Source: Clostridia bacterium (GTDB lineage: Bacteria; Bacillota; Clostridia; UMGS1840). From it: 64,000 bases of DNA. The position numbers and the translations under genes were made by a program. This document shows, in pieces, positions 5,624 to 27,276 of this stretch; positions within the stretch are counted from its first letter, which is position 1; each line of letters begins with the position of its first letter. The notes under the pieces were generated by a model. That model searched no databases. It saw nothing but the letters and a program-made list of their open reading frames with translations, and was not told the DNA's origin. The stretch lies in the NCBI GenBank assembly GCA_017625695.1, contig JAGAKI010000079.1, forward strand, positions 1 through 64,000, given 5' to 3'.

Positions 5624-5647
5624 ATCAGCACCTCCTCTCTTCGGCAC

Positions 5648-5752
5648 AATAAGGGCAATCGGTGATGCCGAAAGCCCTTATGTGAGTGAATCATTTTGAA
5701 AGCAGGCAAAGCCTGCATCGGATAGAGCATTGCTCATAGGGAAAATGAAAAA
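5648..5752. repeat. cluster of hairpins upstream of uvrB
   Basis: Stem ATAAGGGC.../...GCCCTTAT (about 5648-5680) encloses CGG/CCG. Next is a branched unit: outer TCATTTT/AAAATGA enclosing GCAGGC-aaa-GCCTGC and GAGCA/TGCTC. It has the same three-way plan as the neighbouring palindrome at 5767-5829. Function unknown. Confidence 0.55.
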
Positions 5753-12305: not shown

Positions 12306-12341
12306 AGTTTTAAAGAACCGATAAAAACACATAAAAACTCA

Positions 12342-12380
12342 TTAGTGACACACAAAAGATATACAAGTGATACACACAAA
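12342..12380 (+). repeat. left end: candidate attL and integrase arm sites
   Basis: Two related boxes in tandem, AGTGACACACAAAAG and AAGTGATACACACAAAA. The second lies in AAGATATACAAGTGATA (12356-12372), which recurs exactly at the right end. Either this is the duplicated attachment core or both are arm-type binding sites for the integrase; an empty site in a relative would decide. Confidence 0.5.
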
Positions 12381-12390
12381 AAAGCAAGCA

Positions 12391-12428
12391 AAAAACCAGG
12401 ATTGAATCATCTTCAGTTCCTGGTTTTT
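12391..12428 (-). terminator. integrase gene terminator
   Basis: Stem AAAAACCAGGA (12391-12401)/TCCTGGTTTTT (12418-12428), 16-base loop, with T tracts on both strands. Placed directly after the integrase stop codon. Confidence 0.75.
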
Positions 12429-12435
12429 ATATAGC

Positions 12436-13485
12436 TTATATCAAATCAATTGCTTCAACAAGTTGCTGTATATCAAAATGTGTATATACTTTTTCAGTTA
12501 ATGACATTGCACCTGCATGACCCACGATACGCTTTATAATGGTTTGATTGACTTCCGCTTTTGCTAACAAAGAAATTGTTGTGTGTCTTGTATCATGTGG
12601 TAAATGTTGAAGTTCCATTTCTTGCATTAAGGGTTTCCAATACGAATCAAAATAATTTCTGTATGTGAAATGTTTTCCTTCAGGTGTGCAAACAAGATAG
12701 TCACACCCTTCTTTCTGCATCCATTTTTCAAAGAAAGGTAAAACTTTTTTGGAAATTGGAACCTTACGAATTCCAGATTCTGTTTTTGAAGCAATAACAT
12801 CAAAATACCTTTCTTCCAGGTGAACATCCTGTTTTTTTAAATCTAATAATTCTGATATACGAACACCGCTGTAAATTAAAATCAAATAAATTTGAATATA
12901 TTCATTGCGATTGACATTATTCCATAAAGTTTGAATTTCTGATTCAGTGAATGGTTTATGTTTTTCTTCTTTTCCTTTTTCCTTGTGCTTAACAATATCA
13001 ACAAATTTAGAATAGTCTTTTTGACAAAGGTCATTTTCCATAGCAAATTGGTACAATTGATTGAAAAGAACTCTTAATTTTCGCAATGTGGGGTAATTTT
13101 TACCGCAAGTATCAATTACACCTTGAAGATGCGTTTTCCTGATTTCAATGAATTTCATGCTATAAAGATTTTTGCATACAGCATAAGATGCTTTATATCC
13201 GTTTACATTTGAATGTGATATTGTTTCAAATTTTTCTGCTGACCATTTATCATATATTTCTGCAAAGGTTATATCATTGTTTATATCATATGGATTTGAA
13301 TTGTATATAGCTAATGCGTTCAATGCTTCCTCTTTTGTTTCATAATATCCAATATATTGATATTTCCTTTTAAGTTTATCACCTTTTTCGTCAATTTCCC
13401 ATGAGAGTGTTTTTCTTATTGCCCAGGGTTTTCTTCTATTTCCAGGCAATTTGTAAACTGAACCATATCCATTTGGTAGTTTCAT
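12436..13485 (-). CDS. tyrosine recombinase (integrase)
   Basis: 349 residues. An N-terminal DNA-binding segment (GYGSVYKLPGNRRKPWAIRK) resembles the AP2-like domain of Tn916/phage integrases, a central SAM-like core-binding domain follows, and the C-terminal catalytic domain has Arg in SGVRISELLDL (about 207), HDTRH (about 297-300), GHAG (about 320) and the nucleophile Tyr in KVYTHFD (about 333). All catalytic positions are present, so it should be active. Start at MKLPNGYG is set by AAGGAAG; the frame extends further without a site. Oriented towards the left boundary, as in PICIs and temperate phages. Confidence 0.93.
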   Translation of the reverse strand: MKLPNGYGSVYKLPGNRRKPWAIRKTLSWEIDEKGDKLKRKYQYIGYYETKEEALNALAIYNSNPYDINNDITFAEIYDKWSAEKFETISHSNVNGYKASYAVCKNLYSMKFIEIRKTHLQGVIDTCGKNYPTLRKLRVLFNQLYQFAMENDLCQKDYSKFVDIVKHKEKGKEEKHKPFTESEIQTLWNNVNRNEYIQIYLILIYSGVRISELLDLKKQDVHLEERYFDVIASKTESGIRKVPISKKVLPFFEKWMQKEGCDYLVCTPEGKHFTYRNYFDSYWKPLMQEMELQHLPHDTRHTTISLLAKAEVNQTIIKRIVGHAGAMSLTEKVYTHFDIQQLVEAIDLI

Positions 13486-13633
13486 ATCAAATTCTTCCTT
13501 TCTGATTGACAAATCAAAAAAGAATTGATATAATAAATACATACCATTTCATTTTTGATTTGCTCACTTGCACTCATTTTGATTTGGTTACTTTCTGAAT
13601 TCCCAGTGTTGCAGCACAGGGAATTCTTTTTAG

Positions 13634-14044
13634 TTAATTGTTGTTGGAATCATTTTCTGTTGCAGCAGAAGATGGTTCTTTTTTGTATTTTGGATGTATT
13701 GCCAAGTCAGCAACATATTGAACGGCTTTGGATTTACCTAAAGAATTTAATGTATCGAAATCATTCAACATTGCCAATGCATCTGACCCAAATGCTTTTT
13801 CAATTTCTTCTATAAGTTTCACATCAGAGCGAAGTTTTTCTATATCCACTGTCAAATCAAATGGTGATACTCCCAGAACAGATGCAATATCTTCAATCAC
13901 ATTCCATGGTGCTTCTATTGAACCATTTTCATACTTTCTAATTGTAGCTTCCTTTTTTCCGATAGCTTCCGCAAGTTCTATTTGTGTCATTTTCATTTGT
14001 TTTCGAACAGCTTTAACCCGCTTTCCAAAGACAGTTTTATCCAT
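13634..14044 (-). CDS. XRE family repressor (CI/Stl-like)
   Basis: 136 residues. The N-terminal helix-turn-helix spans MTQIELAEAIGKKEATIRKY (about residues 18-37). The C-terminal half (SDVKLIEEIEKAFGSDALAML and following) is a short dimerisation-type region with no LexA/CI protease motif, so release from repression would need another signal, for example a helper-phage protein as for Stl. That role is inferred from position. Start at MDKTVFGKR follows GAAAGGAAG. Divergent from the Cro-like gene across an operator-rich interval. Confidence 0.85.
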   Translation of the reverse strand: MDKTVFGKRVKAVRKQMKMTQIELAEAIGKKEATIRKYENGSIEAPWNVIEDIASVLGVSPFDLTVDIEKLRSDVKLIEEIEKAFGSDALAMLNDFDTLNSLGKSKAVQYVADLAIHPKYKKEPSSAATENDSNNN

Positions 14045-14091
14045 AAATTCACTTCCTTTCACCTTTAAATGTGATTTCATTATATCACAAC

Positions 14092-14193
14092 CGATATTAA
14101 AAATCAAGTATTTTCTAAAAGAATCTAAATATATCTATTGACAATATCGTTTTAAAGGTGTATAATATAACAAAAACGATATTTAAAATATCG
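14092..14193. promoter_or_regulatory. repressor/cro operator region with early promoter
   Basis: Plus-strand promoter TTGACA (14138-14143), 17 bases, TATAAT (14161-14166). Repeated operator half-site CGATATT occurs at 14092-14098 and, inverted (AATATCG), at 14143-14149, overlapping the -35 box. A perfect 17-bp palindrome CGATATTTAAAATATCG lies at 14177-14193, between the promoter and the Cro-like gene. This is a classic lysogeny-switch arrangement. Confidence 0.8.
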
Positions 14194-14210
14194 GTACAAG
14201 GGGTGAAAAT

Positions 14211-14450
14211 ATGAAAATAGATAATCAAAAGTTTGAAATCGCTATAGCAAATGCTTGTATGACATTTAGTGACTTATCAAAAAAATCAGGAATTTCACTA
14301 TTCACCATCTCAAGAATGCAGGGTGATGTAAAAATAAGACCTGAAACTATTGGGAAAATTGCAAAAGCATTAAATGTAAAAGTTGAAGAACTGATTGAAA
14401 CAACTGCTGCAACAGTCAATCAGAACACCAGGAATTCAGAAAGTAATTAA
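14211..14450 (+). CDS. Cro-like XRE family regulator
   Basis: 79 residues, nearly all a helix-turn-helix fold: MTFSDLSKKSGISLFTISRM followed by IRPETIGKIAKALNVKVEEL. First gene under the early promoter, opposite the repressor gene. Its expected job is to bind the CGATATT operators and favour the replicating state. Ribosome site AAGGGGTG. Confidence 0.85.
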   Translation: MKIDNQKFEIAIANACMTFSDLSKKSGISLFTISRMQGDVKIRPETIGKIAKALNVKVEELIETTAATVNQNTRNSESN

Positions 14451-14472
14451 AATGAAAGTGAGAGAATCAAAA

Positions 14473-14907
14473 ATGAAAACAAATCTTTTAGAAAAAATCA
14501 ATCTTGAAGAAATACTTGCCATCACATCATCAGGCACAAAAGGAAAACATTATGTAAATGTGACACTTCAAAACGGCGATATAATCAGACATTCCATGAA
14601 TGATGCATTTGGAATCCATTATTGCAATGAATTCATTCGTTCCCTAAAAGTTTATGATGAAATATATCTTGAAGAATGTTTGCACAATCACATACATTTG
14701 TATGAGAAAATCATAAGTGATTGCAATTACCTTATTCATATAAAAAAGGTTCTTGATTTATTACATAGACAAGACATCACCGCAAATCAAATATATTTAT
14801 GTATATTAAACAGAATACTTCCCAAACACAATGTATCATATGATGAAGCAATATTGCACAGACCATTGAAAGAATGGGTTCAGGAAGCTGTTACATATTT
14901 CAATTAA
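14473..14907 (+). CDS. unrecognised element protein, 144 aa
   Basis: I do not recognise a family. The protein (MKTNLLEKINLEEILAIT...) is hydrophilic and mixed alpha/beta in appearance, without cysteine clusters or membrane segments. The start is uncertain: ATG at 14452 and at 14473 are both possible; I prefer 14473, preceded by GTGAGAG. It sits between the Cro-like gene and the primase-helicase (12-base gap to the latter) and so belongs to the early replication operon. Confidence 0.65.
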   Translation: MKTNLLEKINLEEILAITSSGTKGKHYVNVTLQNGDIIRHSMNDAFGIHYCNEFIRSLKVYDEIYLEECLHNHIHLYEKIISDCNYLIHIKKVLDLLHRQDITANQIYLCILNRILPKHNVSYDEAILHRPLKEWVQEAVTYFN

Positions 14908-14919
14908 GGCGGTGAGAAA

Positions 14920-16932
14920 ATGACGGAATTAAAACAAATTGCATCTATCCTATATGATGGCTTTTATTGTGGTGGCGGTGGTAGTGACGGAAATCCAAAA
15001 GTCAGAAAAGGAAAATCAAAACCTGCTTCTTTAGACTATGCGTTAAAAAATTTTCCTTATATTCTTGGAAAAATTAAAAACAACATTATTATAACAGATT
15101 ATGATTCTGATGAAACATTTCAAGCAAGATTTGCTATTGTGAAAGCTTTAGAGCAAAGCTGTATAGTAATTAAATCCCCACACAAAGGCGGTCATATCTA
15201 TTGGTTCAACAGAAATCATTCATATACAGTTAGTAACAGTATAAATAAAACAATATTAACACTTTCCCCAGTTGATTATAAATGTGGAATAAAAATTGTT
15301 AAAAGCACTGGTGAAATCAAAGATTCAGATTGTTATGGGTGTTTATCAAATGATGATAAGACTTTAAGAAAGATACTATATATCAAAATCAATGATGATA
15401 ATACACTTGATGAACTTCCATTTTATGATTTACCAATGAAATCAGGAATAAAACATAACTTCCTTAATATGAAATCAGGTGATGGAAGGCAAGATGGATT
15501 GTTTACTTATATGAACCCATTAAAAGCTGAAGGGTATTCTTATGAGCAATTCAGAATAGTTTCTGAACTTATTGATAAATTCATATTTTCAGAATCATTG
15601 GGTGATGAATTTGAAAATGCTATCAGAAAAGAAGCATGGGATTCAATCAATAGTTCAGCAAGTTCTGAATTTTTCAGGGGTAAAACTTTTTTACATGATA
15701 GATTTGCGGAACATTTAAAAAATACTTATTACATTAGAAAAATAAATGGACAGCTTCAGATTTATAAAGATGGTGTGTATGTCAGCGGTAATGAAGAAAT
15801 AGAAAAGTGCATGTGCAAAGAAATCCCATCACTGACTGATGCAAAAAGAAAAGAAACTTTAAAGCAGCTTAATCTGATATGTGATGAAATTGTTATAAAT
15901 GATAAGAATGCACATATGATTGCATTCAGAAATGGTGTATTGAATATTTTGGATGATTCATTCACACCATTCACACCTGACCATGTTATCACAAACAGAA
16001 TTGATTGGGATTATAACCCACAGGCTTATGATGAACTGACGGATAAAACACTTGACAAGATTGCTTGCAATGATAAAAACATCAGGTCATTACTTGAAGA
16101 ATGTGTAGGTTCATGTTTTTACAGGTCAAACACTCTTGCAGGTGGAAAAGCATTCATATTAACAGGAACAGGAAGCAACGGAAAGTCAACTTTTATTGAA
16201 GTTCTTCAGTCGATACTTGGTGAAAATAATTATTCTGTTTTGGATTTAAAAAGTTTATCTGACAGGTTTTCAACAATTATGATGTTTGGTAAGCTTGCAA
16301 ATTTGGGTGATGATATTAGTAGTGAATATATTGCTGATGTGTCAGTTTTCAAGAAAATAACCAGGGGTAATGAAATTGATGCAGAACAGAAAGGTCAACC
16401 GAAATTTAGTTTTAAACCTTATGTAAAACTGATTTTTTCTGCAAACAACATTCCCCGAATGGGAAGGGGTGACACATCAGCTGCACATGACAGATTGTTG
16501 ATTATACCCTTTAATGCACACTTTTCAAAAAATGATGCTGATTATGATAATACAATAATATGGAAATTGCAAAGTCAGGAAGCTATGGAATATCTGATTC
16601 AATTAGGAATTCAGGGGTTAAAAAGAGTGCTTCAGAACAAGCAATATACACATTCTAACAAAGTTGATTCACAGCTTGATGAATACCGCATTGAAAACAA
16701 CCCTATTCTTTCATTTGTTGAAGAAATTGGTGCTGATTCAATTGAAAATGAACCGACAAAAGATATTTTTACAAGGTATTGTGTTTACTGCTCACAAAAT
16801 GGTTTTAAACCTGTTTCAAATATAAATTTTTCAAGACAGATATGCAATCAATTAAATTTGAAAACAGTTTCAAAAAAAGTAGGCGGAAAAAAATATCAAA
16901 TCTTTATAAAACAAGTACAAGATACAAGATAA
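14920..16932 (+). CDS. primase-helicase, AEP/SF3 (D5-like) type
   Basis: 670 residues. The N-terminal third (NNIIITDYDSDETF, later IKSPHKGGHIYWF) resembles an archaeo-eukaryotic primase/polymerase domain with the acidic DxD pair. The C-terminal part is a D5-type superfamily 3 helicase: Walker A GTGSNGKST at residues 415-423, Walker B region KLANLGDDIS, motif C KLIFSANNIPRM, and an Arg-finger segment AAHDRLLIIPF. Such proteins melt and prime the origin of P4-like satellites and PICIs. Ribosome site AAGGCGGTGA. The iteron/AT-rich origin starts inside its last codons. Confidence 0.9.
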   Translation: MTELKQIASILYDGFYCGGGGSDGNPKVRKGKSKPASLDYALKNFPYILGKIKNNIIITDYDSDETFQARFAIVKALEQSCIVIKSPHKGGHIYWFNRNHSYTVSNSINKTILTLSPVDYKCGIKIVKSTGEIKDSDCYGCLSNDDKTLRKILYIKINDDNTLDELPFYDLPMKSGIKHNFLNMKSGDGRQDGLFTYMNPLKAEGYSYEQFRIVSELIDKFIFSESLGDEFENAIRKEAWDSINSSASSEFFRGKTFLHDRFAEHLKNTYYIRKINGQLQIYKDGVYVSGNEEIEKCMCKEIPSLTDAKRKETLKQLNLICDEIVINDKNAHMIAFRNGVLNILDDSFTPFTPDHVITNRIDWDYNPQAYDELTDKTLDKIACNDKNIRSLLEECVGSCFYRSNTLAGGKAFILTGTGSNGKSTFIEVLQSILGENNYSVLDLKSLSDRFSTIMMFGKLANLGDDISSEYIADVSVFKKITRGNEIDAEQKGQPKFSFKPYVKLIFSANNIPRMGRGDTSAAHDRLLIIPFNAHFSKNDADYDNTIIWKLQSQEAMEYLIQLGIQGLKRVLQNKQYTHSNKVDSQLDEYRIENNPILSFVEEIGADSIENEPTKDIFTRYCVYCSQNGFKPVSNINFSRQICNQLNLKTVSKKVGGKKYQIFIKQVQDTR

Positions 16933-17135
16933 AATATAATGGGTACAAGATTAAACACACTCATTTTGTACTGCTTCAAAACCGCACGAAATCAAACTTT
17001 TTTGTTGCAGTACAAGATGGTACAAGATGTTTTTAACTTCTTGTGAAATAAATAAAAAAAAATAAATACTCTAAAATTTTATTTTAAAAAAATAATATAA
17101 TATATAATTTAATTTATCTTGTACCATCTTGTACT
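16915..17135. other. candidate replication origin of the island
   Basis: Iterons of (G)GTACAAGAT occur in direct orientation at 16915, 16923, 16942, 17010 and 17019. The 20-mer AGTACAAGATGGTACAAGAT (17009-17028) recurs as a perfect inverted copy at 17116-17135. Between these two sets lies an 87-base stretch made almost only of A and T (17029-17115). Two iteron groups flanking an AT-rich melting region directly behind the primase-helicase gene is the design known from SaPI origins. Confidence 0.75.
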
Positions 17136-17171
17136 ATTGAAAATTATTATTCAAAGAAAGGATTGAATTAA

Positions 17172-17480
17172 ATGAATATATCAGATGTTAAAAAGAACCA
17201 TCCAACATTTCTGACCGATAATATATTGATAAATAAAGTCGGCAGAATTAACTACTATATTGACCCAAGAACAAGAATTGCTACTGATGGTGAGATACAG
17301 AAAGTAAAACCCATTGCATGGAATCATACATATTTTTGGATTGTATGCCCTTTCTGTCAAAAAATTCACCAGTATTCAATCATGCAGACCAGGAAAGATA
17401 AACATGTTGTATATGCAAATTGTAAAGGCAGAATTAATAACGGAATTGACCAACAACCACTTTTGATTGATTCTATATGA
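17172..17480 (+). CDS. unrecognised element protein, 102 aa
   Basis: No family recognised. One CPFC pair near residue 60, followed by a Cys near residue 84, hints at an incomplete zinc-binding site (IVCPFCQKIHQYS). Start is preceded by AAAGAAAGG. It lies immediately right of the proposed origin and could be read from a promoter inside the AT-rich stretch. Confidence 0.65.
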   Translation: MNISDVKKNHPTFLTDNILINKVGRINYYIDPRTRIATDGEIQKVKPIAWNHTYFWIVCPFCQKIHQYSIMQTRKDKHVVYANCKGRINNGIDQQPLLIDSI

Positions 17481-17598
17481 GCAGAAATCAAAGTGTTGTC
17501 AGATTTGTCAGTCCTTAAAAAAGGGAATCACAAGAAAAACACTTGCTGAATGGAAAAATAAGTATGGTGACATTTCCGACACCATAAAAGGAAGGTGA
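17467..17598 (+). CDS. possible tiny Cys-rich peptide, 43 aa
   Basis: From a TTG at 17467 a frame of 43 codons overlaps the end of the previous gene and ends six bases before the next. It encodes KCCQICQSLKKG then KTLAEWKNKYGD, a CCxxC-type motif. No convincing ribosome site is visible, so coding would rely on coupling. It may simply be an untranslated spacer. Confidence 0.25.
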   Translation: MILYEQKSKCCQICQSLKKGITRKTLAEWKNKYGDISDTIKGR

Positions 17599-17603
17599 AG
17601 TAC

Positions 17604-17795
17604 ATGAATAAAGATAATTTGATACACAACAGCACCCGAACACATGAAGAATTAAGTGAAATGGGAAGAAAGGGCGGTGTTGCATCTGGTTTAGCCCGCC
17701 GTGCAAAGAAGGAACGCACACAGGATTTACAGGCAGTTGTAAACCGTTGCACATACAATGAAGTTATTGGAATGTTGCTGAAAAACAAGAAATGA
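17604..17795 (+). CDS. small KGG-motif protein, 63 aa
   Basis: Highly charged small protein with EMGRKGGVASGLARRAKK, a GRKGGxASG motif seen in many small phage proteins and in KGG stress proteins; the role in phages is not established. Start ATG at 17604 follows GGAAGGTGA. Belongs to the plus-strand operon behind the origin. Confidence 0.65.
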   Translation: MNKDNLIHNSTRTHEELSEMGRKGGVASGLARRAKKERTQDLQAVVNRCTYNEVIGMLLKNKK

Positions 17796-18016
17796 TAAAG
17801 CCCGAACAAAGCCCGATTATATATACATTTCGCACACCCTAAAAAGGGCGGGCGAAGTTGTTGACATTCAGGTTGAAAATTTGGATAAATTTTGATTTGA
17901 ACAAGACTTTTCAAGACTTTTTAACAACAAAAAACCCACATAAACCCATATGAATCAAATGTTTTATATATGTTTGTCAGTATAAACAATCAAAATTATG
18001 AAGGGAATGATGCAAT

Positions 18017-18289
18017 ATGGCAAAAGCAATAACTGATATTGAACTTACTGCGGTTATCGGTGAAGAATTATTCAAAAAATGTTTAGAAAAATTTCATGGT
18101 AGACAATATTATTTTAAGAAAAAATCAAACCCCTTGCAGTTTAAAAACCAAAGAGAAAAAGAAGAATTTATCCATGATGCGTTTTTAAACGGATTGTCCT
18201 TTGAAGAAATAGGTGTAAAACTGCAAATTACCCCCGAATATGCAAGAAAGGTTTTTTATAAGCAGTTGCACCAAAAGAAAAACAGTTAA
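18017..18289 (+). CDS. HTH-containing small protein, 90 aa
   Basis: The C-terminal half LSFEEIGVKLQITPEYARKVFYKQL looks like a sigma region 4-type or Mor-like helix-turn-helix, so a transcription role is plausible. The N-terminus (MAKAITDIELTAVIGEELFKKC) is helical. Start follows GAAGGGAATG. It precedes the palindrome at 18319-18361, which it might bind; that is inference from position. Confidence 0.6.
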   Translation: MAKAITDIELTAVIGEELFKKCLEKFHGRQYYFKKKSNPLQFKNQREKEEFIHDAFLNGLSFEEIGVKLQITPEYARKVFYKQLHQKKNS

Positions 18290-18318
18290 AACTGGCAATA
18301 GAAAATTTTAGAGAATAT

Positions 18319-18367
18319 CCATATATTGTGCATATATATTTATTACAAGCACAATATATGGTATAAT
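18319..18367 (+). promoter_or_regulatory. 13-bp inverted repeat abutting a -10 box
   Basis: A perfect inverted repeat CCATATATTGTGC (18319-18331)/GCACAATATATGG (18349-18361) is directly followed by TATAAT (18362-18367), and a second TATAAT lies at 18372. No U tract follows, so it is not a terminator. It looks like an operator over the promoter of the right-hand gene block. Confidence 0.6.
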
Positions 18368-18522
18368 TAGGTATAATCATTGAATTGGTTGTGCCTTTTC
18401 TTTTTTGCCCTGAAATATCTTTATTTCTTACCTGTGACACACAAAATTAATACAAAACAGTGATTTTACAATGTGTTGTAATTATCACACTGATAATTTT
18501 AATACTGAAAGGATGATGAAAA

Positions 18523-18918
18523 ATGGAAAAATCAACAAACAGCACTGAACCAAACTGCACTGAACAAAACTACAACATTGAAGAATTTACAAAAGAATTA
18601 ATAAGCATTTTCGGGAAGCTTAAACAGACACAATGGAATGATAAATTTATCAATCAATATTCTGCTTACAAAAGAATTCTTGACTTGTATGCAAATATGG
18701 GTGAGGTTCACATCAGGAATATGAAAAATGCAGTGGCTTATTTTAAACAAGAGCAACAAAAATATCATGACCTTTGTAAAGAATTGTTTACAGTTGCAAA
18801 AAACCTTAACCCCAAATTTGTTGATATTTCAGAACCAAAGCTTCAGCAACAGATGGATGATCTGCAAAAGATGATGCAAGTATTGGAAAAGCAGATGGGT
18901 GAAACAAATGTATCATGA
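18523..18918 (+). CDS. unrecognised element protein, 131 aa
   Basis: Hydrophilic, helix-rich protein with a threonine/asparagine-rich start and a C-terminal stretch (LQQQMDDLQKMMQVLEKQMG) with heptad-like spacing, likely a short coiled coil. No family recognised. First gene of the block downstream of the 13-bp palindrome. Ribosome site AAAGGATGA. Confidence 0.6.
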   Translation: MEKSTNSTEPNCTEQNYNIEEFTKELISIFGKLKQTQWNDKFINQYSAYKRILDLYANMGEVHIRNMKNAVAYFKQEQQKYHDLCKELFTVAKNLNPKFVDISEPKLQQQMDDLQKMMQVLEKQMGETNVS

Positions 18919-19171
18919 ATATATTAAACAGCGGCTTAATACAATTACAGCTATTGTGAATAAACGGAACAAAGAAATACACCATATATCAAATTTAAAG
19001 TATAGAGTAATTTCAGGCAGAAAACACATCCCTATTACAGACAAAATGAGAAAATCAATGATTCGGAAGGTTAAAGAAAAATATAGTTCTCAAATTTCAA
19101 AGCTATATGACGAAATAAACGAACAACTAAATTCTTTAAATCTTCCAATATTAGAAAATCCATATAAATGA
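18908..19171 (+). CDS. unrecognised basic protein, 87 aa
   Basis: Lysine/arginine-rich (YIKQRLNTITAIVNKRNKEI), with no recognised domain. It overlaps the end of the previous gene by 11 bases, which suggests translational coupling. I chose ATG at 18908, preceded by GGTGA; GTG at 18899 is an alternative. Confidence 0.55.
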   Translation: MYHEYIKQRLNTITAIVNKRNKEIHHISNLKYRVISGRKHIPITDKMRKSMIRKVKEKYSSQISKLYDEINEQLNSLNLPILENPYK

Positions 19172-19188
19172 AAGGCGGTAATTTAAAA

Positions 19189-19914
19189 ATGAATATTACA
19201 TTGACTAAAGAAACAAATAAGCTTATTGAAGCACACAGAGCTATTGACAAGAAAGGTGCAGATGATATGTGGGCAGTGTTGGATAAATGGAAAGAACCTT
19301 CCATGATAAATAAATATCAGCCTGAAGCATTAATTTCAGAATGTAATGCTGAACTGAATGAAGTTATTTCCGAATGCAGAAAAGCTGATACTTTATTGAA
19401 TCAAAAATTAAAAAATGAAGTTTCAAATGCAAAAGCAAAAGTCATTCCTTGCTGCATTACATCCATTACAAAACCAAATGATTATGCAATGCAAGTAAAT
19501 AATGCATTACATTTTATCACACTTGAAGGTGAAGAACTCACTGATGAAAAAGCCTATAACATTCTGAAGCAGTTTATTGAAGATTATGAACAGATGGAAT
19601 TGTTTGCAGCAGTTGTTGAAAAACAGGTGGGTACAGAAAAATTTATAAATGCAAATGGTACTTGCTTTTTCAAGAAAACTTTTGGTAAATACAGCAGAGC
19701 AAAGGCAATTATAAATTTGTTTAATGAGATTGAAGCTTTATCAGAGAATCTTTTTATCATCCCTAAAGTGGCAAGTAATACATTCATTATAAATGCACAT
19801 TATTTCAATGTAGTTAAGGATGGTTATGCAGAAATTGCAGATGAACAAAATATTTTAAACTTGCTTGCCGAACTGGATATTGCACTAAAGGATGTAATTG
19901 AACCAATAAAGTAA
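19189..19914 (+). CDS. unrecognised element protein, 241 aa
   Basis: No recognised family. Soluble and acidic; begins MNITLTKETNKLIEAHRAID and contains a central CCITSITKP segment. Start ATG at 19189 follows AAAGGCGG with good spacing; the upstream in-frame start has none. It sits just before the sigma-like gene, 16 bases apart. Confidence 0.6.
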   Translation: MNITLTKETNKLIEAHRAIDKKGADDMWAVLDKWKEPSMINKYQPEALISECNAELNEVISECRKADTLLNQKLKNEVSNAKAKVIPCCITSITKPNDYAMQVNNALHFITLEGEELTDEKAYNILKQFIEDYEQMELFAAVVEKQVGTEKFINANGTCFFKKTFGKYSRAKAIINLFNEIEALSENLFIIPKVASNTFIINAHYFNVVKDGYAEIADEQNILNLLAELDIALKDVIEPIK

Positions 19915-19930
19915 TTAAGGGGTGAAGCTG

Positions 19931-20851
19931 ATGACAAATGAAGAATTGGTTGAGCAAATACAATCAGGAATAAATGTTCAAAACAATATGGGTTTGCTGT
20001 ATGAGCAGAACAGAAATTTTATTTATAAATTGGCTTTACCCTATTCTAATTATGTTGAAATTGATGATTTAATGCAAGAAGCATATTTTGGACTTAAAAG
20101 AGCAGTTGAAGGTTTTGATTCAAGTAATAAATTCAAATTTTTAACATATGCAGAAGTTAAAATAAAATCAGCAATGCAGCGGTATTACTATAATCATGGA
20201 TTGACAAAGCGAATATCGGTTCATACCCTTGAATTGATACACAAATATCATAGGTTCAGGAAAGATTTTTACAACAAAAATAATGCGTATCCATCTGAAG
20301 AACAAATTCTTAATGAACTTCATATAACAGCAAAAAAACTTAAAGAACTGGAAACAGTCATTCATTCAGAACATTGTCAAAGTATGAATGATATTATTCC
20401 AGGAACTGAAGATATTACACTTGAAGAAAGCATTGCAGATGAATATGATTTAGAAAATGATGTGACTGATAGAATCTGCACTGAAGCAGTAAATAAATCT
20501 ATTTGGGAAGCTGTAAAAGAATTAGATAAAAGAAGTTCTGAAATAATAATTGGCAAATATAAAAACGGATTGACATTAGAAAAAATTTCAGAATTGTTGA
20601 ACATATCAAGAACAAGGGTGCAGCATATGGAACAATTTGCATATAAAACTTTATATGATAAAAAAACCATTATGGAAGCTGCTGAATTTTATGGTTATGA
20701 TTCAGCAGCTTCTTATCATTATGGTGTCAGTAGATTTAAAAACACTTTCACATCATCAACAGAATATGTTGCGATAAAAAACATTACTTTACAAGAGAAA
20801 ATGAAAAAGTTAGATAATAAACTTAAAAAAATTATGGATGGGCGGTTGTAA
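19931..20851 (+). CDS. sigma-70 family RNA polymerase sigma factor
   Basis: 306 residues. Region 2 is clear: FIYKLALPYSNYVEIDDLMQ then AYFGLKRAVEGFDSSNKFKF and TYAEVKIKSAMQRYYY. A region 3-like helical segment (SVHTLELIHKYHRFRKDFY, PSEEQILNELHITAKKLKEL) follows, then region 4 (LDKRSSEIIIGKYKNGLTLE then LLNISRTRVQHMEQFAYKTL) around residues 195-245. It is longer than a typical ECF factor. In a satellite it could redirect host polymerase to the late block. Ribosome site AAGGGGTGA before ATG 19931. Its stop codon shares one base with the next start. Confidence 0.8.
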   Translation: MTNEELVEQIQSGINVQNNMGLLYEQNRNFIYKLALPYSNYVEIDDLMQEAYFGLKRAVEGFDSSNKFKFLTYAEVKIKSAMQRYYYNHGLTKRISVHTLELIHKYHRFRKDFYNKNNAYPSEEQILNELHITAKKLKELETVIHSEHCQSMNDIIPGTEDITLEESIADEYDLENDVTDRICTEAVNKSIWEAVKELDKRSSEIIIGKYKNGLTLEKISELLNISRTRVQHMEQFAYKTLYDKKTIMEAAEFYGYDSAASYHYGVSRFKNTFTSSTEYVAIKNITLQEKMKKLDNKLKKIMDGRL

Positions 20852-21180
20852 TGAGCATGAAAGAAAAACTATACCAAATTAAACTTGCATACAAGTTTGT
20901 TGAATTTTACAAAAAAGATATTGAATGGTGTAATAAGCAAATTGAAAAATCAATTGCATATCGTGATTCTTTATCAACTGAATGTGACCAGTATATTGTA
21001 AAAATCAATAATTTTCTTGCTGCTGTTGAACAGTTGCCTGAAGCATGGCAAACAATTATATTAAGAATATATATCGAAGGTGCGACAATAGAAAATATAG
21101 CTTCAAGAAATAATTGTACCGTTGATGATATTATAAACATTCATGACTTGGCTTTGCAAAAGCTTGAAACATTAATCTGA
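20851..21180 (+). CDS. sigma region 4-like / late regulator, 109 aa
   Basis: The C-terminal half LPEAWQTIILRIYIEGATIE plus NIASRNNCTVDDIINIHDLA resembles the sigma region 4-type helix-turn-helix of phage late regulators (ArpU/DUF1492 kind). The N-terminal half is a predicted coiled coil (EFYKKDIEWCNKQIEKSIAY). One-base overlap (TAATG) with the sigma gene means tight coupling, so the two may act together on the tape measure gene promoter 60 bases downstream. Confidence 0.65.
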   Translation: MSMKEKLYQIKLAYKFVEFYKKDIEWCNKQIEKSIAYRDSLSTECDQYIVKINNFLAAVEQLPEAWQTIILRIYIEGATIENIASRNNCTVDDIINIHDLALQKLETLI

Positions 21181-21241
21181 TAATAACTGTTTTTACAGAT
21201 TATTATAAATACTATTTAGCAGAAAGGGGGTGTAAAGTAAT

Positions 21242-24200
21242 ATGAGTAAAATTTCTACCATAATCGAACTTCAGGATAGAATGACCGCCCCATTGAACAA
21301 CATGGCTAATGCAATGCAATCAACAATAAGTGTTGCAAATGATTTGAACAACACTGGGATTGATTTAAATGTTGACAATACAACATCAAAAATTTCAGAT
21401 TTAGTTCAGCAATTGCATAGTGTTGAAGCAATACAAGATGATATTTGTGCCAATGCTGAAAATATGTATATCATACCAAAAGATATGCAAAATGACATAC
21501 GAGATGCCAATGCAGAAATTCATAGATTAAAAGCTGCTTTAGAATTTGCTGCTTCTCCTGACATGGATGCAAGTTCAGCAATTAAACAATATGATTCAAT
21601 TCAAAATTCTATCGAAGAATTAATTGAAAAACAAGGTGCATTAAATTCAAAGATGGCTTCATCCCCATTTCAGACAGGAACACAAGCAACCCCTGTCACA
21701 TGGAATTCAAATGGTTTTGATGTGTTTACAACAAGCGGTGCAGAAAGATATGAACAGGAAGTTCAATCTTTGAATCAATACTTGCAACAGTTGTATGGAA
21801 CACAGCAACGAATCACACAACAGGCGGTCAACACTGATTTATTCCCTGAAAACATGGTTGCAGACCTGACCCACATGCAGGGTAAGATGGAAGCAATCAG
21901 GGCGAAAGTTCAGCAAATTGAGCAGAACCCATTGAATATGGGTAGTGATGAAGCTAACAGTCAGCTTGAACAGTTAAGAAGTCAGTTGCATCAGATGATT
22001 GATGCACAAAATGATTTGAATAATGCAGTCAATGACATGGATGTTTCTGCTGCAAATTCAGCATACCAAAGACTTTCTTCAACAATCAACACAACTGAAG
22101 CACAAATCAGGGATAATGTTGACGAACAAGGCAGGTTCACAAATGAGGTTAAAAACAGTGAAAATGCTGCTTCAGGTTTAATGTCAACAATTAAAGGTGT
22201 TGTTGCTGCTTATGCTACAATTCAGACTGCAAAAATGGTCATTGATGTTTCTGACACTTTGACACAGACAACTGCAAGACTGAACATGATGAATGATGGA
22301 CTTCAGACCACTGAACAGCTTCAGCAAATGATTTTTGCTTCAGCTGAAAGGTCAAGGGGTTCATATCAAGCAACAGCAGATACTGTTGCAAAATTGGGGT
22401 TGAATGCAAGTGATGCTTTTAATTCAACACAAGAGATTGTCACATTTGCAGAGCAGTTGAATAAGCAGTTTATAATTTCAGGTGCATCCATTGAAGAAAT
22501 GAAAAATTCAACATTGCAATTAACACAGGCTTTGTCAAGCGGTGTTTTGCGTGGTGATGAATTGCGTTCTGTATTTGAACAAGCACCAATGATTGTTCAA
22601 ACCATTGCTGATTATATGGATGTTCCAATTGGTAAAATCAGAGAAATGGCAGCTGATGGTCAAATTACAGCAAACATTGTAAAAAATGCAATGTTGGATG
22701 CTGTTGATGAAACGAATGCAAAATTTGAATCAATGCCAAAAACCTTTGGTCAGATTTGGACATCTATGCAGAATCGGGCTTTGATGGCTTTTCAACCTAT
22801 ACTTCAAAGACTAAATAAAATTGCAAACAGCAAGGCATTCAATACATTTGTCAACAATGCAGTTTCTGCTTTAACAGTGTTAGCAGGTGCATTGACAACT
22901 GTTTTTGATATTGTTGTCAAGGTCGGTGCATTCTTTGCAGATAACTGGTCAATTATTGCACCGATAATATACGGAATCACAGCAGCGGTTGCTGCTTATA
23001 CAGCGGTTATGCTGATATACAATGCAGTTCAGGCAATAAGCAATTTACAGAAGAAAATAGCTGCAATTTCAGCAGTCATGCATGGTGCAGCAATAACGCA
23101 GGAAATGATTGCAACCACTGGCTTGACAGCAGCACAGCTTCAATTCAATGCAGCCTTGTATGCTTGCCCTTTGACATGGATAATCCTTTTAATCATAGCA
23201 ATTATTGCATTGTTTTACATTGTTATTGCAGTAATAAATGATATTTGCGGAACATCAGTCAGTGCAACAGGAATAATCATGGGATTGCTTGCAACACTTG
23301 GTGCTTATATATTCAACTGTATTGCATACTGGTGGAACATAATTTCAGCATTCATTGAATTTTTCGTGAATGTTTGGAAAAATCCTGAATATGCAATCAA
23401 AGCACTTCTTGTGAATTTAATCAATGCCTTCCTGAACTTCTGCTTGGCAATTGTTCAAGGAAATGGTGCTGCAATCGGTGTGATTGTCGGTGCATGGTAT
23501 GCGTTTTGTCAGATAATTTCAAACATTGTTGCAGCGGTTTATAACTTCTTTGCAATGTGTATTGAATGGATTGTCAACGCATGGAATCAGTGTGTGTTTG
23601 CGGTTCAAACATTACTGTATAACATAGCTGATGCAGCTTTGGGTGCAGCACAAGGTGCTGCTTCTTCAATGGAAGCTGCTGCAACTGCAATTGGAAATGC
23701 TTTTGTAAGCGGTGCAAATGCTGCAATCAATGCAATTAACTGGATAATTGATGCAATTAACATGATACCTGGTGTAAATATTGGGAAGTTTAGTCAATTA
23801 GGACCTGTCAGCTTCAATGCTGTTTCAACCAAAATTGGTGATATGCGAAGCAATCTTTCCCAACCAACTGCACCTGAAACATTCACCCTTGACAGAATGG
23901 ACTTTGGAAGTATTTCTGAAGCTTATGACATGGGTAATCAAGCAGGACAGGATTTTGCAGCAGGATTTGAAGGAACAGTTGCAGATATTCAGTCAGGGAT
24001 GCAAGACTGGCTTGGTGAAACACCTGATGATTATTGGGAAGCACCAAAGCTTGATTATATCAATCTTGGGGATGCTGCAAAAGCAGGTTATGAATTCGGT
24101 TCAGGTGTTGAAGATAAACTTTCAAATTTTGGAAATCTTGACACTGGTGACATGGAAAACATGCTAAATGACATTGCATCAAATACTGGTGATACTGCTA

Positions 24201-24454
24201 AAAATAGCGGTAATGCAGCAGATGGTGCAGGTAAAGCAGCAGATGCTTTGGATTGTACGGATGAAGAATTGCAATATTTAAGAGATATTGCAGAAAGGGA
24301 TGTCATAAACAGATTCACAACCGCTGAATTGAAAGTTGAAATTCATTCAGAAAACAACATCAATTCTGATATGGACATTGATGGTGTTGTTGAAAGGTTT
24401 ACTGAAAAAGTTTCTGAAGAACTTGAAGCTGTTGCTGAAGGGGTGCATGTATAA
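21242..24454 (+). CDS. phage tail tape measure protein
   Basis: 1070 residues. N-terminus [20 protein letters not shown] is typical of Siphovirus-type tape measure proteins of Clostridia phages. The tape-measure domain follows ([20 protein letters not shown], then [20 protein letters not shown] and [20 protein letters not shown], about residues 350-500). Four or so hydrophobic segments lie between about 560 and 780 ([20 protein letters not shown] is one), then an Ala/Gly-rich tail. It sets tail length and enters the cell envelope at infection. Ribosome site AAAGGGGGTG. Remarkably, no other tail, head or packaging gene is present in the island. Confidence 0.92.
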
Positions 24455-24490
24455 TTAAATAAGCTTAAATTCATCTTTTCTTTATAGTCA

Positions 24491-24534
24491 AATACCCTTT
24501 GTAAACTTTATAGATTTTGCAAAGGGTATTTTTT
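24491..24534 (+). terminator. terminator after the tape measure gene
   Basis: AATACCCTTTG (24491-24501)/CAAAGGGTATT (24520-24530) followed by TTTT. Ends the long right-hand transcript. Confidence 0.85.
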
Positions 24535-24542
24535 CATTTCAG

Positions 24543-24571
24543 TTGATTTATTCATCAAAATATGCTATAAT
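24543..24571 (+). promoter_or_regulatory. promoter of the right-end small genes
   Basis: TTGATT (24543-24548), 17 bases, TATAAT (24566-24571), just behind the tape measure terminator. The three right-end genes are therefore an independent unit. Confidence 0.65.
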
Positions 24572-24598
24572 TATGTAAAAAGATTGAAGGTGTTTAAA

Positions 24599-24787
24599 AT
24601 GCGTGTGTACGAATCATGGATGCAGTATATTGTTTGTTATCCCTGTTCTGATGAAGAAGGTTTTGACGGAATTCATGATGGTGGTTGGAAAGGTGTCAGA
24701 GATGATGCACCTGATGAAGCCAAACAAGCATTTCAAAAATTTCTTGAAGAAGAAAAAGAAAATCTAAAAAATCATGTAAAAGTTTGA
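24599..24787 (+). CDS. unrecognised small acidic protein, 62 aa
   Basis: MRVYESWMQYIVCYPCSDEE with an aromatic, acidic composition and a helical end rich in Glu/Lys. No family recognised. ATG at 24599 follows GAAGGTG. Confidence 0.55.
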   Translation: MRVYESWMQYIVCYPCSDEEGFDGIHDGGWKGVRDDAPDEAKQAFQKFLEEEKENLKNHVKV

Positions 24788-24798
24788 AGGTGAATTTG

Positions 24799-25200
24799 AT
24801 GGATGAATTAAAGAAGATGTCTGATAAGGAATTATCTATCAGAATGGTTATGTATATTGAACGAGTTCAGAAACTTATGGATTCTGTATCAGAAATAATG
24901 GATGGAAAAGGAACAAAAATGTTGATTAATTCCATTCATCATGAATATAAAGCAATTAAACAAGCAGTAAAAGATGATGCACATTATTTGAATCTGACTA
25001 TGAACAGAAGGATTGATGAAGGTTCTGAACTGTATAATGGATTTTTCAAACCTTCCATCAGTGAAGCTGCTGCATTCGGTTTTGCTTCATCTACAAATAG
25101 CAGGATAGATTTCAAGTTCTATGATTCACTTGAAGAAGCAAGATATAAGTTAACTAAATTCTATACTTTGGAAGAATGGAAAAAGGTTATTGAAAGTTAA
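24799..25200 (+). CDS. unrecognised element protein, 133 aa
   Basis: Soluble, helical (MDELKKMSDKELSIRMVMYI). No recognised motif. ATG at 24799 follows GAAGGTGA, the same ribosome-site type as the gene before it, 11 bases upstream. Second gene of the right-end unit. Confidence 0.55.
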   Translation: MDELKKMSDKELSIRMVMYIERVQKLMDSVSEIMDGKGTKMLINSIHHEYKAIKQAVKDDAHYLNLTMNRRIDEGSELYNGFFKPSISEAAAFGFASSTNSRIDFKFYDSLEEARYKLTKFYTLEEWKKVIES

Positions 25201-25221
25201 TTTTCAAAATGGTGTATATGT

Positions 25222-25530
25222 ATGAGAAACATATCAATTGAAATTTCTGAACAAACTAAAAATATTATTGAACTTGCGACAGGAACAAGCATTGAAAATA
25301 TACTTGAGCAAATTAAATTTGAAATATTAAAGGATAATGAAGCACATGGTAAAATTTCAGTTTGTGAAGCAGCAAAAAGAATGAATAAATCACCACAATT
25401 TGTCAGAATGGGATTGCAGCAAGGCACACTTCCCTTTGGTGCAGCTGTAAAAATGCCAGGTGGGAAATATTCATATTATATCAGTCCTAAAAAGTTTTAT
25501 GAATATGTGGGAAATACTGAAAATAACTGA
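25222..25530 (+). CDS. excisionase-like HTH protein, 102 aa
   Basis: The C-terminal half KISVCEAAKRMNKSPQFVRM then GLQQGTLPFGAAVKMPGGKY matches the winged-helix excisionase-like proteins (MerR-type helix-turn-helix followed by a substrate-like wing) common in Clostridia phages. The N-terminal half is a ribbon-helix-helix-like segment. Placed at the right end of the island rather than beside int. It could be Xis or a small regulator; I cannot separate the two. Confidence 0.65.
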   Translation: MRNISIEISEQTKNIIELATGTSIENILEQIKFEILKDNEAHGKISVCEAAKRMNKSPQFVRMGLQQGTLPFGAAVKMPGGKYSYYISPKKFYEYVGNTENN

Positions 25531-25558
25531 ATTCTTAAAAAGTTCAGCTTTTTACCAT

Positions 25559-25583
25559 AAGATATACAAGTGATATACAAAAA
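25559..25583 (+). repeat. right end: candidate attR / arm site
   Basis: AAGATATACAAGTGATA (25559-25575) is identical to 12356-12372 near the left end and continues as TACAAAAAG, one base different from the left arm boxes. It marks the right boundary of the island. Confidence 0.5.
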
Positions 25584-25712: not shown

Positions 25713-26055
25713 TTAGAAATAGTCTTGCGGAATTTCCTTTTTTTCGGGAATAAACTCCTTTTGCGGAATAAATTCACCGATGAAATTAAATATGATCTGT
25801 ATTTTCTGTACTCTTTGTCCGCTTGATTTATCGGGAGCGTGAACAACAATTTTTTTTGATAAACTCATTTACGATTGTCGGTGTTAATTCTTTAATACCG
25901 ACATATTTTTTGACAATTTCGTGAAACTGCTTAAAGTCAATTTGTTGCCTGTCAAAAATGTTTGTTTCTTCTTCAAAAACTCTAATCTGTTTCTGTAATT
26001 CTGCCTGTTCGGTTTCGTATTCATTTAATAAACGAATTTCGTTGTAAAAATACAA
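25713..26055 (-). pseudogene. C-terminal remnant of a large serine recombinase, frameshifted
   Basis: The minus strand reads EQAELQKQIRVFEEETN then HEIVKKYVGIKELTPTIVNE and FIKK, the tail typical of transposon-type large serine recombinases (DUF4368 region). A run of eight A then shifts the frame; removing one A restores IVVHAPDKSSGQRVQKIQII then FNFIGEFIPQKEFIP and a stop at 25713. The N-terminal catalytic and recombinase domains are missing, so this is a scar of another mobile element, abutting the satellite. The loop of an inverted repeat TTCCGCAAGA/TCTTGCGGAA (25703-25732) covers the restored stop. Confidence 0.8.
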
Positions 26056-26484: not shown

Positions 26485-26571
26485 AATTTGTAATAAAGTG
26501 TAAGGGAGGTTTTAATTTTTGTTTCGCAAATTAGAAGGTGCAATACACAAATTGAAATGGAGGAACAAAAA

Positions 26572-27276
26572 TTGAAAAAGACATTAAAAGGTTATTTGTT
26601 AGGATTTATAAGTGCAACACTTATGGTGGGGTGTGTCACAGCTTTTGCTGCGAATACAACTACCCTTTACAATGTAATTGCCAACGGAATTAAAATTGTT
26701 GTTGACGGACAGAAACTCAATCCTACAGATGTAAACGGAAATAAAGTTGAGCCAATTATTTACAATGGCACTACATATTTACCTGTAAGAGCAGTTGCTA
26801 ACGCTCTTGGTAAGGCGGTTTATTGGGATGGTCCTAATTACACAGTTTATCTTGGAGATATGAACGGAGGATTGGAATATCCAACTGAAGAATTAAGCAT
26901 AAATGATGATATAGGCGGTGGAAGTTGGACTGAATCAGATGTTTTAAAAGATAATTTAGGAAATACATATTCAAGAGCTATATATCCTTGGTTGAGTGCA
27001 CGAGTAGATTCAAGTAGAAGATATGAAAAAATATGTAATATGAAATTCTCAAGTTTTAAAGGAACAATTTATGTTATGAATGGTAGTAACACTAATGGAA
27101 GTACCCAGTTCCTTATCAAAGCAGATGGTAAAACTATATATACATCGCCTGAGATAACAAAATCATCTGCTCCAATAGACTTTGATGTTGACATAACAGG
27201 TTGCTATAATTTGCAAATAGTTTGTACTGGTGATCCTGATTTTGTTTGCATAGGTAATGGTGGTTTTTATCAATAA
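26572..27276 (+). CDS. secreted stalk-domain protein with NPCBM-like C-terminus
   Basis: 234 residues. Start: TTG at 26572 is preceded by GGAGG at ideal distance and gives a clean signal peptide (KKTLKGYLLGFISATLMVGC, cleavage near AFAA). The ATG five codons earlier overlaps that ribosome site. The mature part begins with a copper-amine-oxidase N-terminal-like stalk domain (IIYNGTTYLPVRAVANALGK), as in many Clostridia surface proteins. The rest (KFSSFKGTIYVMNG ... FLIKADGKTIYTSPE) resembles an NPCBM carbohydrate-binding fold. Probably anchored or bound at the cell surface. It lies in the mobile-element scar region and may be acquired DNA. Confidence 0.75.
   Translation: MKKTLKGYLLGFISATLMVGCVTAFAANTTTLYNVIANGIKIVVDGQKLNPTDVNGNKVEPIIYNGTTYLPVRAVANALGKAVYWDGPNYTVYLGDMNGGLEYPTEELSINDDIGGGSWTESDVLKDNLGNTYSRAIYPWLSARVDSSRRYEKICNMKFSSFKGTIYVMNGSNTNGSTQFLIKADGKTIYTSPEITKSSAPIDFDVDITGCYNLQIVCTGDPDFVCIGNGGFYQ

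Follow-up and report, generated by a model that had tools for sequence, protein, structure and literature searches.

An integrated phage satellite-like island of Clostridia carries a tape measure gene that may serve chimeric helper tails

We analysed positions 1 to 64,000 of contig JAGAKI010000079.1 from a Clostridia bacterium (hereafter the window) and found at 12353-25583 an integrated island of ~13.2 kb whose only intact virion gene encodes a tape measure protein (TMP) of 1,070 residues. Islands of like plan, marked by a shared sigma factor, recur in gut Clostridia, and their TMP genes have been exchanged repeatedly with those of contractile phages. Judging from these genes, we consider it reasonably probable that the island depends on a helper phage, as one satellite of a sigma-marked Clostridia family, and that its TMP replaces that of the helper, giving a chimeric tail. 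L and G numbers below are our handles for loci or contigs and for genomes, respectively.

An island with a single intact virion gene

The island lies immediately 3′ of rplM-rpsI, in a trough of GC content (28-39%, compared with ~44% around it). An imperfect 28-nt direct repeat (12353-12380 and 25556-25583), with an exact core of 17 nt, AAGATATACAAGTGATA, forms its borders. The carrier metagenome-assembled genome (MAG) is 1.97 Mb and 98% complete, and because the island is internal to a 145-kb contig with host genes on either side, misassembly, which the initial annotation had raised, is an unlikely cause of its unusual content. Comparison with the unoccupied rpsI site in the same genus (loci in non-reversed orientation) gave no alignment past the gene, which leaves attB unproven.

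From left to right the island contains an integrase and a cI-like repressor on the minus strand, then a promoter, a Cro-like regulator, a small conserved protein, a D5 primase, small genes, a 248-aa protein, the sigma factor, a sigma region-4 protein and the TMP, followed by a hairpin with a T run and three small genes. The principal features are:

12353-12380, no strand: attL-like direct repeat CAAAAGATATACAAGTGATACACACAAA, ~100 nt downstream of rpsI
12436-13542, minus: tyrosine integrase (PF00589, 2.3e-20; phrog_1, 6.5e-52)
13634-14107, minus: cI-like repressor (HTH_3, 3.5e-13)
14138-14166, plus: perfect sigma-70 consensus promoter between cI and cro, TTGACA-17-TATAAT (motif scan)
14211-14450, plus: Cro-like regulator (HTH_26, 7.1e-9; 54% identical in the L036 island)
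14920-16932, plus: D5-type primase-helicase (phrog_864, 3.3e-143; 50% in L036)
17467-17598, plus: 43-aa small-terminase-like fragment, probable TerS remnant (phrog_309, 1.2e-4; full TerS in relatives)
19922-20851, plus: satellite sigma factor (regions 2 and 4) by which the island family is recognised (phrog_351, 1.3e-40)
20851-21180, plus: sigma region-4-only protein (profile matches)
21242-24454, plus: TMP, 1,070 aa, intact (PF20155, 3.8e-46; phrog_1068, 1.7e-246)
21242-21694, plus: TMP residues 1-151, absent from the near-identical phage TMP of L003
21691-24454, plus: TMP body and C terminus, 94.8% DNA identity to the TMP of myophage L003
~24491-24534, plus: terminator-like hairpin and T run 3′ of the TMP (read by eye; its loop exceeds the limit of the terminator scan, which therefore does not list it)
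25556-25583, no strand: attR-like direct repeat, pairing with the repeat at 12353-12380

Examination of every sizeable open reading frame (ORF) with Pfam and PHROG profile searches revealed no TerL, portal, capsid or other head gene, sheath or tube gene in the island, and no tail assembly chaperone was recognisable next to its TMP. The island resembles a phage-inducible chromosomal island (PICI) in its integrase and att repeats at both ends, its divergent repressor/Cro-like pair and its own primase, and in having neither TerL, portal or capsid genes nor a full tail module. The initial annotation had recognised this architecture of integrase, divergent repressor, Cro-like gene and primase-helicase, as well as the intact TMP as the only virion gene, and both are borne out by the profile matches, the att repeats and the recurrence described below. 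It had also described the island as free of packaging genes, which holds for intact ones but overlooks the TerS-like fragment. The TMP does close the main transcript, as had been proposed, but the hairpin that follows it and the three small genes beyond (24584-25530) mean that it is not the end of the island.

A family of sigma-marked islands

Among 391 genomes of the class searched with the window sigma factor, we found one close relative of it (45%), in the Ruminococcaceae MAG G351. The surrounding island (L036) shares the integrase, cI, Cro (54%), primase (50%), TerS, the sigma factor itself and a 102-aa protein at the right end (56%). Its 20-bp att repeats lie 12.9 kb apart, and its 703-aa TMP belongs to an unrelated family (phrog_58 group) and is located before the sigma gene. 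Single-sequence scans with the window sigma factor, with the 248-aa protein or, against genome contigs, with the TMP returned no relatives; two-row and multi-row alignments of the sigma factor and primase recovered them. The sigma alignments matched 29 viral contigs and 80 genome loci, almost all from Clostridia, plus Tepidibacillus; carriers include Lachnospiraceae, Faecalibacterium, Intestinimonas and Pseudoflavonifractor among gut Clostridia, and one Bacilli genome. Carriers that can be cultured include Intestinimonas butyriciproducens An565, Pseudoflavonifractor An85, Acetatifactor muris DSM 23669 and Tepidibacillus decaturensis Z9. Two candidates, G328 and G282, were set aside, having only a lone sigma gene amid ordinary genes; a distant sigma factor in G294 (L037) stands beside a phage-type helicase, with no TMP.

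The nearest clade comprises 24 islands (the window island, L036, L149, L150, L152-L168 and L120-L122). In 15 of them the TMP has 500 aa or more, two retain only a TMP C terminus and seven have no TMP. In the 15 TMP-bearing islands, which are spread over many genera, we found no TerL, portal, capsid, sheath or tube gene; those of like plan are L149, L152, L154-L159, L161, L166, L168, L120 and L122, and TerS is present in many members of the clade. Across the wider set of 119 candidate loci, 40 encode a TMP that is 500 aa or longer, and in 35 of these 40 no gene for TerL, portal, capsid, scaffold, tube or sheath was found anywhere in the locus. This head and tail screen used phmmer and profile searches with references from phiC2, phiOH2 and LincolnB, a small set, so that a head gene of diverged sequence might escape it in relatives; the distant members of the 119 loci include fragments, and the screen alone does not make them satellites. 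The initial annotation had suggested looking for the same gene order in other Clostridia, and the nearest clade shows islands of the same plan; a complete head-tail module at this position, a prospect it had also raised, was not found among the nearest-clade and screened loci.

Att repeats at both ends were found in three of the TMP-bearing nearest-clade islands, and the terminal repeats of relatives lie 7.5-16 kb apart. Five islands (L150, L153 and L163-L165) are integrated at the 3′ end of rpsI, which they duplicate and restore (AGTTCTCGAAGAGATAA-type core); the window island sits beside rpsI too. The satellite reading of the window island has strong support, and the island is one member of a family of phage parasites that is widespread among Clostridia of the gut type and seems not to have been described before. 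Our literature search, from which preprints and most subscription papers were out of reach, found no account of such satellites in Clostridia.

Exchange of TMP genes with contractile phages

The TMP of the window island is closely related to that of the myophage contig L003, with 94.8% DNA identity over 21691-24455 and homology that goes no further than the stop codon. Over long stretches the two genes are 99-100% identical, and patches at residues ~400-475 and ~600-640 fall to 67-69%. Residues 1-151 share no recent ancestry with the L003 TMP. The idea that this N-terminal part is satellite-specific was dropped, its best matches being phage TMPs at 28-34%. Two further pairs bear on exchange: phage L253 is 95% identical to satellite L154 from the TMP start onward, and satellite L250 matches phage L274 at 75%, confined to the TMP gene.

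Nearly all non-satellite TMPs that we found in the window's TMP family sit in contractile-tail modules. A tree of 89 TMPs placed the satellites scattered among the contractile-phage TMPs, with ten satellite/phage label changes, nine of them forced by supported branches; this comparison, which the initial annotation had proposed, rests on a quick tree with some long branches (L147, L168), and the count of changes is approximate. Near-identical satellites (flanks 92-97%) also differ by patches inside the TMP (L154/L155 and L158/L159). Together, these patterns show that entire TMP genes, or parts of them, have passed repeatedly between satellites and contractile phages. In the conserved parts of satellite TMPs, the ratio of nonsynonymous to synonymous substitution rates (dN/dS) was 0.04 (L154/L155), 0.06 (L158/L159) and 0.10 (L158/L157), values that point to purifying selection.

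Five satellite TMPs were compared in length with their closest phage relatives, and three of these pairs were near-equal (1143/1138, 725/724 and 908/910-911 aa). The window TMP has 1,070 aa and its phage counterpart 1,028, with the surplus mostly in the N-terminal domain, and the L120 TMP is an exception to equal lengths (881 aa, compared with at least 1,002 in the phage). The initial annotation had suggested that the satellite alters tail length; the three near-equal pairs disfavour this as the purpose of the TMP.

We considered two alternative explanations for the TMP. The mosaicism and near-identical segments, which indicate frequent recombination at the TMP, and its absence from some close relatives would fit a spare part, that is, a moron or recombination reservoir mainly for the benefit of phages, or a transient passenger that has no effect on satellite particles. 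This seems quite unlikely, because the placement of the TMP after the sigma gene, its frequent linkage to other tail-interior genes (XkdR, XkdP and the tail completion protein) and dN/dS values well below 1 argue that the satellite uses it. The initial annotation also allowed that the island is what remains of a prophage after a clean deletion of its head and tail genes. Deletion could leave a single tail gene behind, TMPs have been lost within the family (L160/L167), and the same genus holds the remnant of a contractile prophage (G008). We regard a relic as highly improbable, since the same architecture without a head/tail module recurs across many genera, with TMPs from families unrelated to one another, the TMP has been exchanged repeatedly and separately and is under purifying selection, and the island retains intact regulators and att repeats at both ends.

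A proposed role in helper tails

Substitution for the helper TMP is what we infer to be the best explanation for the island. Upon induction or helper infection, the satellite would excise and replicate with its own primase, its sigma factor would drive a late transcript in which the TMP is the last gene, and TerS, where intact, would direct satellite DNA into helper capsids. The satellite TMP would replace the helper TMP during tail assembly, placing a satellite ruler and ejected pilot protein inside the sheath, tube and baseplate of the helper. Repeated recombination with phage TMP genes would keep the body and tip end fitted to the tube and tip of the current helper, and the variable head-proximal N terminus and internal patches could plausibly reflect escape from TMP-directed inhibitors, or a tail reserved for satellite heads. 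In phage 80alpha, the head end is where the TMP N termini meet the tail completion protein, the C termini contact Tal at the tip, and the TMP is probably ejected ahead of the DNA (PMC11661146). Mutations by which ICP1 escapes the inhibitor Rta map to the TMP.

Several observations weigh against TMP substitution. TerS is reduced to a fragment in the window island, and the protein found directly upstream of the TMP in most relatives is missing from it. The seven nearest-clade islands that have no TMP imply that this gene is not essential to the satellite lifestyle. Searches of the carrier MAG revealed neither a second TMP of this kind nor a sheath gene, and most other carrier genomes searched had no second TMP of the family. 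The lack of a helper in the host genome would also suit some other kind of integrative element, whose TMP protein serves something besides a phage tail. That is very unlikely: TerS and the virion genes of relatives (TMP, XkdR, XkdQ, Tal, tail completion protein, scaffold and major capsid protein) are phage-specific, and profile searches recognised no conjugation gene among the island proteins. For the window island as a phage satellite, the helper is probably a contractile phage. A broken contractile prophage lies in G008, of the same genus as the window (L241:14042-16225; sheath 50% and tube 32% to L003), which indicates that contractile phages do infect this genus.

In L160 (1342-1620) and L167 (11064-11276), a small ORF after the sigma gene corresponds to the C-terminal 92 aa and 70 aa of the TMP, respectively; these may represent decay or a decoy. 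The shape of such C-terminus-only TMPs fits a competitor for tip binding, and inhibition of tail assembly is an established mode of defence (PMC11364771, PMC10884400), so that satellite TMPs in general might poison helper tail assembly in a dominant-negative manner and defend the cell without entering satellite virions. We consider such a decoy unlikely for the family. Full-length TMPs of 600-1,140 aa under purifying selection in their conserved parts are more than a decoy needs, the TMP matches its phage relative in size in several pairs, TerS in many relatives implies packaging, and the precedent set by Vibrio satellites, described below, is one of incorporation.

Other virion genes across the family

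The satellite TMPs fall in several sequence clusters from different PHROG families, unrelated to each other. XkdR, a DUF2577 protein and putative spike from its position in the phage module, accompanies the TMP in L120, L149, L152 and L157; XkdP is present in L282 and a tail completion protein in L138, and L162 has a tail completion protein but no TMP. Some sigma-marked islands carry, instead of a TMP, a lone hub-type XkdQ (L123:6205-7161 and L191) or a Tal-like protein (L130:11938-13938). In a more distant branch, scaffold and major capsid protein genes (phrog_172, phrog_422) lie just before the sigma gene (L172:7902-9237, L173:9073-9921, L188, L211 and L214), and no terminase or portal was seen in these five islands, which are the capsid-type counterpart of the TMP satellites. 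L122 encodes a head maturation protease (phrog_80) and TerS (3765-4379 and 5130-5708) along with a TMP, and no capsid or portal was found there. The picture that these genes suggest is one of single exchangeable virion parts, of which the TMP is the commonest.

A protein family of 116-159 aa is encoded immediately upstream of the TMP in L155 (11261-11692) and 15 relatives, at the place where phages have the chaperone XkdN. It gave no Pfam, profile or fold match, and its identification as an XkdN-type chaperone was rejected at profile level (hhalign probability 0.3%); it is a candidate satellite tail chaperone.

A wider reading is that a large, independent Clostridia clade practises tail piracy with exchangeable parts, one or two per island (TMP, spike, hub and tail completion protein, and in other branches scaffold and capsid protein), renewed by recombination with the helper gene and yielding chimeric virions. 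We put this at an even chance. If it is true, TMP replacement would have arisen separately in Vibrio PLEs and in Clostridia and would be a general way to mark or protect satellite particles.

Comparison with known satellites

The closest precedent is provided by the PICI-like elements (PLEs) of Vibrio cholerae, which incorporate the satellite TMP and exclude that of the helper, so that tails are chimeric, and in which deletion of the TMP lowers transduction by 96-99.9% (Mathur et al., Nature 2026, PMC12987554). Putative tmp genes were also noted in PLE-like elements and in some capsid-forming PICIs (cf-PICIs; PMC12987554, Extended Data Fig. 10). The initial annotation had known of no satellite class built in this way, a statement that these PLEs overturn, although they carry additional tail genes. 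The mechanism class is thus already known, which lowers the novelty of our observations, and what would be new is its occurrence in a Clostridia lineage. Both groups are integrated satellites that encode their own TMP, and the baseplate hub protein added by PLE11 may be compared with XkdQ, or the putative spike XkdR, in some Clostridia relatives. They differ in that the PLE helper, ICP1, is lytic and that PLEs carry a tail assembly chaperone with the TMP and remodel capsids, whereas the Clostridia lineage has a D5 primase, sigma factor, TerS and several TMP families, usually with no recognisable chaperone. The Clostridia family, whose host and gene plan differ from those described for PLEs, looks like an independent lineage, often with the TMP as its sole tail gene.

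PICIs and Staphylococcus aureus pathogenicity islands (for example, SaPI1 with 80alpha) share with the island and its relatives an integrase and divergent regulators, pri-rep, TerS (a fragment in the window island, full-length in many relatives), a size of 8-16 kb, the absence of a structural module, and att ends. They differ from the Clostridia island in that it carries a TMP and a sigma factor; to our knowledge, the PICIs described so far target packaging and the size of the capsid and not the TMP, and we know of no PICI with a sigma factor as a feature. The cf-PICIs encode heads and packaging genes. Like the TMP satellites, they carry structural genes and need helper tails, but they have their own capsid, portal and terminase genes, of which the island has none. 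Contractile Firmicutes phages of the Xkd or phiC2 type are the source and nearest relatives of the TMP (phrog_1068; L003, L253, L274 and phiC2); in the phages, XkdN and XkdP flank the TMP within a complete tail module, which the satellites lack.

Chimeric tails built with a satellite TMP had been demonstrated only for one Vibrio family against one lytic phage, and a separate lineage in gut Clostridia follows the same idea, in many cases with just one tail gene. Natural TMP recombination points to the kind of phage that each satellite parasitises, and tight satellite-phage TMP pairs could guide guesses at helpers. This lineage also makes it testable which TMP end decides the fit to head or tip, and what a satellite gains from a ruler of its own. 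A sigma gene with a lone TMP provides a sequence signature for mining satellites.

Remaining genes and flanking sequence

The other genes of the island are:

14470-14907, plus: conserved satellite protein (30% in L036)
17172-17480, plus: 102-aa protein with a zinc-ribbon-like motif (weak, PF12760, 0.005)
17595-17795, plus: 66-aa protein of phage family phrog_2412 (3.8e-12)
18017-18289, plus: 90-aa satellite-conserved protein (27% in L036; also in L152 and L250)
18523-18918, plus: 131-aa protein, no assignment
18899-19171, plus: 90-aa protein, no assignment (29% in L120)
19168-19914, plus: 248-aa satellite-specific protein (relatives upstream of sigma or TMP in L120, L152, L162 and L250)
24584-24787, plus: 67-aa protein, no assignment
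24784-25200, plus: 138-aa protein, no assignment
25222-25530, plus: 102-aa helix-turn-helix/excisionase-like protein at the right end (phrog_6058, 2.3e-21; 56% in L036, same place)

At the right end of many relatives, we observed secreted-looking proteins of 560-620 aa with similar N termini (L120:14719-16401, L149:14223-15947, L152:14032-15732, L155:15052-16767 and L162:12141-14006). The L155 protein had no PHROG match; these are possible surface or exclusion proteins. Just beyond attR in the window, a minus-strand sequence at 25828-26055 resembles by eye the C terminus of a serine recombinase, a remnant of another element, and the AT-rich stretch to the right of the island encodes a secreted protein with copper-amine-oxidase-N and NPCBM domains (26557-27276).

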